Source of the DNA: an uncultured Cetobacterium sp.
GTDB taxonomy: Bacteria > Fusobacteriota > Fusobacteriia > Fusobacteriales > Fusobacteriaceae
Length of the DNA stretch: 41,570 nt
Assembly: GCF_945952365.1 (NCBI RefSeq)
Contig: NZ_CAMFHX010000021.1
Coordinates: forward strand, 1-41,570
Direction of reading: 5' to 3'
A program made the translations under genes and the position numbers. The notes beneath the pieces were generated by a model that saw only the letters and a list, made by a program, of their open reading frames with translations, did no database searches and was not told where the DNA came from. This document shows, piece by piece, positions 22,146-25,305 of the stretch. Position 1 is the first letter of the stretch. Each line of letters opens with the position of its first letter.

Positions 22146-23561
22146 TTAAAATATATCGTTTAATCTATAGTTAATAAGATCTATTTTAGCCCCCGCAATA
22201 AACCTATTTAAATCTTCTAGATGAGATAATAAACTCTCTTTACTAGGTCCACCTAAGGACTTTCTTTTTTCAACACACGTTTTAATAGCTATATTTTCAT
22301 ATATATCCCCGCTAAAAATATATGAAAACTCTTTGTATTTCTCTAAAGAAAGAGTTTCTAGGTTCAGATTATTTTGAATACAATAGCTCACAATTGCCCC
22401 CGTTATTTTGTAAGCTTCTCTAAAACTCATTCCTCTCACTGTCAGATAGTCAGCAACGTCAGTCGCATTTATAAAACCATCATTACATGCTAAAAGTAAA
22501 ACCTCATCTTTCACTTTTAGAGTTTTAACCATTCCAATAAACACCTGTAAACATCCTTTGACAGTATCTACAGCATCAAAGAAAGCCTCTTTATCCTCTT
22601 GCATATCTTTATTGTATGCCAAAGGAATCCCTTTCATAGTAGTTAAAAGTGCCATTAAATCCCCGTAAACTCTACCAGTTTTCCCCCTAACAAGTTCGGC
22701 TGCATCTGGGTTTTTCTTTTGTGGCATGATACTACTTCCTGTTGAGAAAGAGTCACTTAATTCAATATATCCATAGTCATTTGAGCTATAGATTATAATT
22801 TCCTCTGAGAATCTAGAAAGGTGCATCATAATAATAGAAAGTCCTGACATAATCTCAATCAGATAATCTCTGTCACTAACTCCATCTAAAGAGTTTAAAG
22901 TAGGTCCTTTAAAACCTAGAATTGCAGCTGTAAACTCTCTATCTATTGGATAAGTTGTTCCTGCAAGAGCAGCACTTCCAAGAGGAGAGAAATCCATAAG
23001 CTCAGCAGCATTTTCTAAACGCTTGAAGTCTCTTTTAAACATCTCTGAATATGCAAACATATAGTGTCCAAAAGAGATGGGTTGAGCTTTTTGAAGATGA
23101 GTAAACCCAGGCATATACGTCTCAAAGTTTTTCTCACCAAGCTCTGTTGTAACCTCAATCAACTCTAAAAGAAATGATTGAATCTTTTTAACTTCATCCT
23201 TTGCAAAGAGTCTCATATCAACTGCAACTTGGTCGTTTCTGCTACGTCCAGTATGTAGCTTTTTTCCAACATCCCCTATTCTATCAATTAGAATTTTCTC
23301 AATATTCATATGGATATCTTCGTAAGTTGTAGAAAACTCTATCTCATTATTTTCAATATTTTCTAAAATCTCGATTAAAGTTTTCTCTATAAGCTCCCCA
23401 TCCTCTTTTGAAATAATCTCCATTTTAGATAGCCCTCTGACATGAGCTATACTTCCCATAATGTCATATCTATATAGTCTTTTATCAAAGTGTATCGACG
23501 AGTGAAAATCTAGGATTAAATCACTTGCTGCTTCTTTGAATCTTCCTGAAAAGTACTGCAT
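22146..23561 (-). CDS. argH: Argininosuccinate lyase
   Basis: This 471-residue enzyme of the fumarase/aspartase superfamily splits argininosuccinate to arginine and fumarate. Motifs: N-terminal SGRF, THLQKAQP near 154-161, TGRSRND at 104-110, and the superfamily signature GSSIMPQKKNP at 275-285 holding the catalytic serine. Length is typical (about 460-470). The start at 23561 gives the normal ArgH N-terminus even though it overlaps the upstream NhaC-family gene by 46 nt. No argG or other arginine genes are nearby, so it may serve salvage or catabolism. Confidence 0.95.
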   Translation of the reverse strand: MQYFSGRFKEAASDLILDFHSSIHFDKRLYRYDIMGSIAHVRGLSKMEIISKEDGELIEKTLIEILENIENNEIEFSTTYEDIHMNIEKILIDRIGDVGKKLHTGRSRNDQVAVDMRLFAKDEVKKIQSFLLELIEVTTELGEKNFETYMPGFTHLQKAQPISFGHYMFAYSEMFKRDFKRLENAAELMDFSPLGSAALAGTTYPIDREFTAAILGFKGPTLNSLDGVSDRDYLIEIMSGLSIIMMHLSRFSEEIIIYSSNDYGYIELSDSFSTGSSIMPQKKNPDAAELVRGKTGRVYGDLMALLTTMKGIPLAYNKDMQEDKEAFFDAVDTVKGCLQVFIGMVKTLKVKDEVLLLACNDGFINATDVADYLTVRGMSFREAYKITGAIVSYCIQNNLNLETLSLEKYKEFSYIFSGDIYENIAIKTCVEKRKSLGGPSKESLLSHLEDLNRFIAGAKIDLINYRLNDIF

Positions 23562-25066
23562 TTTTCATCTCCCTTAAAACATTTTTGTGTAATTAACTTT
23601 ATACCAATTAAAATCAAAATCTGTGCAATGATAGCAAATATTATTAAGTAACTGTTTTCAGTGAAACCACCTATTAAAAACACAGTTACTGCTAAAGCTG
23701 CATTTATAAGAGCATATGGAGTCTGAGTTTTAACGTGGTCTATATGGTCACAACCAGCTCCAGCAGATGAAAGAATAGTTGTATCTGAGATTGGAGAAAC
23801 ATGATCTCCAAAAAGTCCACCTGAAAGAATAGCTCCTATCGTAACGTAAAGCGGAGCGTTAAAAGTCAAAGCCATAGGAATAACAAGAGGTATCATAATA
23901 CTAAAAGTTCCCCATGAGCTCCCAGTTGAAAACGAAATCACAGCTCCAAATAAAAATGCTATAGCTGGAATGAATCCAGAGTTTATATCTAGTGATTTTA
24001 AGAAACTGATTAGAAATTGGTCAGCTCCTAAATCTTTATTGATAACCCCTAAAGACCAAGCTAAAATAAGGATTATAATAATCTCACTCATCTTTTTCAT
24101 ACCGTTCATGTAGATTGAGAATATCTCTTTAAAAGTTTTAGATTTATAAAACAGCATCAGTCCCATAAGAACTAAAGCAGCATATAGATATCCACTTGTA
24201 AGAGCGGCTCTGAAAGCTCCCCCAGAAACTCTAGAAGTTATAAATGAAACTCCCAGCATCGAGAAAAGTGTTCCAAGTAAAACAAGGATTGGCAACCAAA
24301 CAAAAGAGCCACGAGCATTTTCAACACGATACTTTGAGTTATCCAGTGTTGTTTCATTTTCAGCAACCTCGCTTTCTAAAGAGAGATTATCTTCAAAAGT
24401 TTTCATAGGTCCAAAATCTAACTTCAAAAGAGTCAGAGTTGGAATTATAGTTAAAGCTAGCAGTGGATATATGTTAAAAGGTATCGACTTTATAAAACTT
24501 TCGTAGTCTGAAAGATTCAGATTTAAAAGCTCAAACTCTTTTTGAAGCAATCCAATTATGAAAACTCCCCATCCAATAAACGGTACTAAAACAGCAACTG
24601 GTGATGAAGTTGAATCTAAAATGAAAGCTAGTTTCTCCTTAGATATTTTTAATCTTTTGAAAAATGGATTGAAGATAGGTCCTACAATTAGAGGGGTCCC
24701 CAAATCAGAGAAAAATATCATAATCCCTGTAAAATATGCAAGAAGCTGAGCTTTTCTCTTTGAGTTGATAGAGTTTTTAAAACTTTCAGCAAAAGCGTAA
24801 GCTCCTCCAGACATCATCATAAGTTCAATAAATCCACCTATAAAAATCATAAGCACAATAACCCCAGCATTGTAGCTATCTGTAAGCTGATTTATAAAGT
24901 ATTTACCAACTAGAACCTTTGTAGTCTCTAGGGGATTGTAGTTGTTTAAAATAAAAATTCCACAGAATACACTGGAAAAAAGTGACAAAACTACGTTTTT
25001 AGTTTTGATTGATAAGAAAACTGCAATTAAAATTGGAACGATAGATAAAACCCCGAATGAAACCAT
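23516..25066 (-). CDS. NhaC-family sodium-coupled transporter
   Basis: This 516-residue membrane protein of the NhaC family has many hydrophobic segments, with family-type stretches GSSWGTFSIMIPLVIPMA and GGLFGDHVSPISDTTILSSAGAGCDH near residues 380-440. Members are Na+/H+ antiporters or Na+-coupled carriers of amino acids such as lysine, methionine, or malate/lactate exchange. Its 3' end overlaps argH by 46 nt in another frame, so the two are co-expressed, and a link to arginine or its precursors is possible. The operon is preceded by a structured attenuator leader (25112-25269). AGGAGG site. Confidence 0.85.
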   Translation of the reverse strand: MVSFGVLSIVPILIAVFLSIKTKNVVLSLFSSVFCGIFILNNYNPLETTKVLVGKYFINQLTDSYNAGVIVLMIFIGGFIELMMMSGGAYAFAESFKNSINSKRKAQLLAYFTGIMIFFSDLGTPLIVGPIFNPFFKRLKISKEKLAFILDSTSSPVAVLVPFIGWGVFIIGLLQKEFELLNLNLSDYESFIKSIPFNIYPLLALTIIPTLTLLKLDFGPMKTFEDNLSLESEVAENETTLDNSKYRVENARGSFVWLPILVLLGTLFSMLGVSFITSRVSGGAFRAALTSGYLYAALVLMGLMLFYKSKTFKEIFSIYMNGMKKMSEIIIILILAWSLGVINKDLGADQFLISFLKSLDINSGFIPAIAFLFGAVISFSTGSSWGTFSIMIPLVIPMALTFNAPLYVTIGAILSGGLFGDHVSPISDTTILSSAGAGCDHIDHVKTQTPYALINAALAVTVFLIGGFTENSYLIIFAIIAQILILIGIKLITQKCFKGDEKCSTFQEDSKKQQVI

Positions 25067-25111
25067 TTTTTAAATCCTCCTGTATTTTAAAAATACTACC
25101 CCAAAAGAAAA

Positions 25112-25133
25112 GGCATACCAAAAATGGTATGCC
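25112..25133 (-). terminator. Leader terminator (attenuator) before nhaC
   Basis: Read on the minus strand, a perfect 9-bp hairpin with arms 25133-25125 and 25120-25112 and an AAAA/TTTT loop is followed by TTTTCTTTT. It lies inside the 5' untranslated region, 46 bp before the nhaC ATG, so it must be conditionally bypassed for the operon to be expressed. Confidence 0.82.
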
Positions 25134-25269
25134 GTAGAGAACTTAACTAAGTTAATAAGCGTATTGTTATGGCAGCGTCACAATACTTAATTCACAGGAT
25201 CATAACATCTACGCCGTCGGCCTTAGGCTCCGTATATGGAAGTGAACTAACCTCTATTTTGTTTTATTA
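25134..25269 (-). promoter_or_regulatory. Structured leader, candidate riboswitch of unidentified class
   Basis: The RNA from about 25269 to 25134 (minus strand) can fold extensively. A closing helix is possible between UAGAG (25256-25252) and CUCUA (25139-25135). AGUUCAC (25248-25242) can pair with GUGAAUU (25195-25189). GUUAUG (25206-25201) can pair with CAUAAC, while GUAUUG in its loop can pair with CAAUAC just downstream, which would be a pseudoknot. The GC-rich core GCCUAAGGCCGACGGCGU stands out in AT-rich DNA. The terminator that follows at 25133-25112 makes a ligand-controlled switch likely. It lacks the conserved cores of lysine, SAM-I, glycine, TPP, FMN and cobalamin switches and of T-boxes. 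Confidence 0.62.
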
Positions 25270-25275
25270 GATGTG

Positions 25276-25305
25276 AGTATACTACATAATCACTACAGTT
25301 GTCAA
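25276..25305 (-). promoter_or_regulatory. Promoter of the nhaC-argH operon
   Basis: On the minus strand, TTGACA (25305-25300), 18 bp and TATACT (25281-25276). The predicted start near 25269 gives a leader of about 200 nt. Confidence 0.7.

Follow-up and report, generated by a model that had tools for sequence, protein, structure and literature searches.

Which RNA stands ahead of the nhaC-argH operon of Cetobacterium, a bacterium of the fish gut, and what does it sense? The DNA analyzed here, referred to as the window, is a stretch of 41,570 nucleotides from an uncultured Cetobacterium sp., in which a leader precedes genes for an NhaC-type transporter and argininosuccinate lyase (ArgH). A preliminary description, made from the sequence alone, regarded this leader as a structured, terminating attenuator of no recognizable class and named sodium, arginine or a related metabolite as candidate ligands. 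Accepted riboswitches exist for few amino acids; one abstract (PMC5584792) names glycine, lysine and glutamine, and an earlier claim of a fungal arginine riboswitch was judged insufficiently supported by a 2022 review (PMC10043782). The reading we prefer, and to which we assign a probability of about 60%, is that L-arginine, or a very close relative of it, binds this leader, which would then be a riboswitch of a new class acting by transcription termination.

The promoter and the perfect 9-bp terminator with its T-tract, both described earlier ahead of the nhaC ribosome site, were found in place (Table 1). The score of the promoter alone is not above chance, since sites of equal quality occur 1.1 times on average in shuffles of the window, and its position is correct for the leader; a comparable promoter was seen upstream of most paralogues. 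The terminator is far above chance (1 in the window vs 0.1 in shuffles) and has the same location in paralogues. The reading frames of nhaC and argH overlap, so the two genes very likely form one operon. Taken alone, the window leader folds modestly better than shuffled sequences (z -2.16), and the comparative evidence for it is far stronger than this single-sequence fold.

Table 1. Features of the leader, its operon and related loci. Positions refer to the window unless a locus is given.
Feature	Position	Strand	Remarks
Sigma-70-type promoter TTGACA-18-TATACT	25276..25305	(-)	11/12 matches
Aptamer-like domain, whole conserved RNA	25136..25258	(-)	model R2, 131 bits
P1 5' strand GAGG	25251..25254	(-)	pairs with 25137-25140; two-sided changes at 2 pairs
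P1 3' strand UCUC	25137..25140	(-)	
P2 5' strand UUAGUUCAC	25242..25250	(-)	pairs with 25187-25195; two-sided changes at 4 pairs
P2 3' strand GUGAAUUAA	25187..25195	(-)	
P3 5' strand CAUAUAC, one bulged A	25232..25238	(-)	pairs with 25201-25206; two-sided changes at 5/6 pairs
P3 3' strand GUUAUG	25201..25206	(-)	
P3b GCC/GGC stem	25213..25228	(-)	ACC/GGU in member L037 supports the stem
P3b loop, 10 nt, near-invariant UAAGGCYGAY	25216-25225	(-)	GGC at 25220-25222
P4 hairpin GUAUUGU/ACAAUAC	25161..25186	(-)	two-sided changes at 4/7 pairs; 100% paired
P4 loop, core GCUGCCAUA invariant	25168-25179	(-)	
P5 hairpin GCUUA/UAAGU	25141..25160	(-)	25156-25160 with 25141-25145; two-sided changes at 3 pairs
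Intrinsic terminator hairpin	25112..25133	(-)	perfect 9-bp stem GGCATACCA/TGGTATGCC, 4-nt loop
T-rich tract after terminator, TTTTCTTTT	25104-25111	(-)	
nhaC ribosome site AGGAGG and ATG	25066..25081	(-)	start 25066
NhaC-family transporter	23516..25066	(-)	Pfam Na_H_antiporter; below NhaC and ArcD equivalog cut-offs
argH, argininosuccinate lyase	22146..23561	(-)	TIGR00838, 597 bits, above cut-off
Shortened yfcC copies	L018:4527-4648, L136:265-375, L137:134-255	(-)	
SBP-argG leader of Cetobacterium	L163:6526-6840, also L164, L166	(-)	

The window leader is genuine and belongs to a conserved RNA family. A search of 98 Fusobacteriota genomes with a covariance model found 45 copies in 17 of them, at 1-5 per genome; the carriers were all 12 Cetobacterium genomes and five other Fusobacteriaceae (two in genus g8, one in g2 and two of the seven g11 genomes). 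In a DNA search that covered 20 relatives, four leader copies were seen in the window's own genome and 1-5 in each genome of the same genus. An improved model, applied to 40 genomes at laxer settings, added no carrier genome. An exact core pattern, run against 84,980 species genomes, matched only records named Cetobacterium or uncultured Fusobacteriaceae, with no match beyond Fusobacteriaceae; the window genus is accordingly assigned to Cetobacterium. Viral contigs and phages gave no match to the family; among plasmids the RNA was found only on two C. somerae replicons, and a 705-kb C. somerae replicon bears one copy. Because the family is confined to Fusobacteriaceae, its comparative power is limited.

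Within these limits, covariation supports a four-way junction. This structure, with an extended P2/P3/P3b arm, was proposed by RNAalifold, which also recovered P5, and its 37 pairs were evaluated in 27 distinct members against 500 shuffles and slid-structure controls. The junction was paired in 95.2% of cells, versus 35-49% for slid versions. Two-sided changes occurred at 19 of the 37 pairs, in 86 cells; the shuffle average was 24 and none of the 500 shuffles reached 86. The covariation score was 0.310; shuffles gave 0.159, and slid controls did not exceed 0.099. In one member (L039), P2 is altered over most of its distal half (UCUGU/ACGGA) with pairing kept. Several members, e.g., L005, L010, L017 and L039, have the four-way junction as their own single-sequence minimum, and the computed minimum fold of the window copy differs from it. 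A three-way junction, formed by pairing among the four UUA/UAA segments, is an alternative that fits more poorly (pairs 75-106 and 76-105 are broken in 6-8 sequences); the counts favor the four-way form. A kissing contact, i.e., a pseudoknot, between GGC of the P3b loop and GCC of the P4 loop is possible; both are invariant and so lie outside the reach of covariation.

The genes downstream of the RNA are related to arginine. In addition to the NhaC-type transporter with argH, targets include an AstE/AspA-like enzyme with an apparent signal peptide and two YjiH-like membrane proteins. In one genome (G008, leader L005) argH directly follows the leader, with no nhaC between. In some species the second YjiH-like gene (L130-L135) precedes an ABC transporter with a lysine/arginine/ornithine-type binding protein; in other species a YheO-like regulator and a 2-oxoacid:ferredoxin oxidoreductase come after it. 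The arginine deiminase gene arcA, sought as context, was absent. YjiH leaders (L010 at ~2850-2890; L016, L017, L037 and L107) have in common a hairpin-capable CAGAAATTT...AAATTTCTGGAGG downstream of the terminator, which overlaps the ribosome site. Upstream of yfcC, which encodes a putative antiporter of basic amino acids, four genomes have shortened copies of the RNA. These copies keep P3, P3b, P4 and the terminator, seem to be missing the 5' strands of both P1 and P2, and have a predicted transcript start immediately upstream of P3; the yfcC gene in the window has no shortened copy upstream.

A pointer to the signal comes from relatives that lack the RNA at these genes. Their orthologous nhaC-argH operon (~70% identical) has, between promoter and terminator, a short ORF that has a ribosome site, contains arginine codons and encodes MLLRRERQGISKL, MLLRHERHGISNL, MKLRQRHIIIII or MLNIRTRRIRIKF. 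The AstE-like orthologue in G023 is preceded by the leader peptide MLRERNNRLKIL, and the YjiH operons of G061 and G062 by MLKLRRRRIRRSRTK and MLMNSRIRERK, with AGG and AGA codons. Both of these operons contain an octopine-dehydrogenase-type gene, and that of G062 also contains argH. For comparison, arginine makes up 2.6% of residues in long ORFs of the same loci. For all three gene groups, then, some relatives without the RNA carry an Arg-codon-rich leader peptide and a terminator, and all three look to be under apparent arginine attenuation in some relatives. Two genomes (G043 and G023) have both devices, on different genes, and in the window's own genome an operon of an arginine-type SBP and argG has the leader peptide MTMRRILRTQTK and a terminator; the SBP-argG leader peptide of Cetobacterium has the pattern MTMRR.LRT. 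Neither device was seen at the YjiH orthologues of five g11 genomes, where the genes sit closely behind others, and no Arg leader peptide was seen upstream of yfcC in relatives. Since the same genes carry Arg-codon leader-peptide attenuators in relatives, we strongly infer that arginine is the regulatory cue; the support is indirect but strong.

The two devices have the same target genes, the same position between promoter and terminator and presumably the same cue. They differ in that the peptides are expected to act through ribosome stalling on AGG/AGA, whereas the RNA family has no conserved leader ORF; by reading, the window leader contains no short ORF with a ribosome site and a run of regulatory codons. 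Leader peptides measure charged tRNA-Arg, not free arginine. In the main rival to our reading, the leader would respond to arginine through a protein or tRNA-Arg; the leader peptides of relatives follow aminoacyl-tRNA supply. Protein binding is conceded as possible by the authors of a similar motif screen (PMC11109978). We consider this alternative unlikely, though it carries the most weight among the rivals. The T-box model RF00230 reached 10.7 bits vs a cut-off of 93 in member L040, not above chance, and the conserved UGGN bulge of T-boxes was not found in the family alignment. Searches of 13 genomes gave no ArgR homologue, while control genomes were positive. Finally, the junction is compact and its two long loops are invariant, which resembles a ligand pocket and argues for direct binding of arginine.

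If the RNA does bind a small molecule, this could be ornithine, citrulline, argininosuccinate or an arginine opine. Argininosuccinate is the compound that ArgH converts to arginine, the YjiH operons of G062 and G061 have the octopine dehydrogenase-type genes noted above, and acylated amino acids are substrates of the AstE/AspA-like family. However, the leader peptides at the same place count arginine codons and not any of these metabolites, which makes such a ligand rather improbable.

Much less can be said for a variant of a sodium, lithium, lysine or SAM riboswitch, an idea whose sole support is the NhaC-family target. Lysine riboswitches also occur ahead of NhaC-family genes and have a loop-loop contact, and like the window RNA they are terminating leaders with a multi-helix junction; they sense an amino acid, as the window RNA probably does. 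Their sequence, size and junction are different. The lysine model RF00168 did not match the window leader, whereas genuine lysine riboswitches elsewhere in the same genome score 110-119 bits. The Na+ and Li+ classes have similar targets of the cation-antiporter type, but the family of Cetobacterium has enzyme targets too and gave no match to these classes. In Rfam 15 (4227 models), no match at gathering cut-offs was found in the window or around the genome's other three copies, and relaxed E-values for the window and divergent paralogues (three members) gave only chance-level matches. The argH, AstE-like and YjiH targets are also poorly compatible with these ligands, as are the Arg leader peptides of relatives, and we regard this alternative as very improbable. 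Equally hard to credit is a non-regulatory repeat spread ahead of several genes, as paralogous copies within each genome and the shortened yfcC copies might suggest, given the compensatory changes in pairs and the placement between promoter and terminator upstream of functionally related genes.

Among described motifs, the trpB motif (RF04312; SRC-39-1, PMC11109978) is similar in being a terminator-type leader upstream of amino-acid transporters in Firmicutes and Fusobacteria; it differs in being described there as having at least two hairpins. Its model gave 17.4 bits on one paralogue vs a cut-off of 59, i.e., chance level. As the Rfam version used already contains this motif, the 2024 screen is at least partly covered. 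Text searches of the earlier screens PMC11109978 and PMC8632094, candidate descriptions included, gave no fitting motif. We conclude that this is a new RNA family of putative function, and probably a new riboswitch class.

The observations of the preliminary description hold, and its interpretation is supported. Covariation far above shuffled and slid controls bears out a multi-helix leader that is conserved in relatives, and the covariance-model searches, which included the sodium classes, agree that it belongs to no known class. Among the proposed ligands, arginine is now strongly favored on the basis of the leader peptides and sodium is not; lysine and SAM, named there as signals of NhaC-family leaders, found no support as cues.

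How would arginine act? In every full-length copy with a scored perfect stem, the terminator lies 0-10 nt downstream of P1, in keeping with a terminating leader; four further full-length copies have, by eye, an imperfect stem. With this spacing the folded aptamer and the terminator can coexist. This is compatible with an OFF switch, the type to be expected at genes for uptake and synthesis. In our reading, arginine would bind the RNA itself, and the resulting fold would let the terminator form, so that plentiful arginine would switch off transport and argH. With ligand bound, the P4 loop (GCUGCC) might kiss the P3b loop (GGC); with ligand absent, its partner might instead be the terminator's 5' arm (GGCA or AGCGU). 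Most members have UGCC/GGCA complementarity between the P4 loop and this arm, and in the second YjiH group, with ACGCU/AGCGU, the terminator arm always occurs with the matching P4 loop. This complementarity lies only within the best 9-12% of 78 control terminators, in members that are related to each other. Folding of truncated transcripts revealed no common antiterminator and no strong conserved alternative fold.

A broader proposal has, in our estimate, slightly better than even odds: that this is the first natural RNA class shown to bind free L-arginine for bacterial gene control, that its four-way-junction fold is new, and that within one bacterial family it and Arg leader-peptide attenuators have replaced each other from gene to gene. 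If true, a natural arginine aptamer would bring a further amino-acid riboswitch class, together with a means of sensing arginine pools. The family also offers a directly readable exchange of leader peptide and structured RNA at orthologous genes, which makes the ligand inferable from codons.

Other leaders of these genomes showed related features. Short SD-preceded ORFs with a Tyr run (MFRFRKINTTSYYYYYRT) and a His run (MFRKNLFTTLHHHHHR) occur in the L189 and L202 leaders, which suggests that leader-peptide attenuators of Tyr and His type exist too and that the group makes general use of such attenuators. Between peptide and terminator, the Arg attenuators of different Fusobacteriota (L147, L149, L157 and L158) apparently have the element AAAGATT-stem-ATGAGYAT in common; an Rfam scan of one example gave no match. 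Finally, a lysine riboswitch, G000:C1:108386-108560(-), has argG directly on one side and an aspartokinase-type operon on the other, so that arginine and lysine control elements adjoin.
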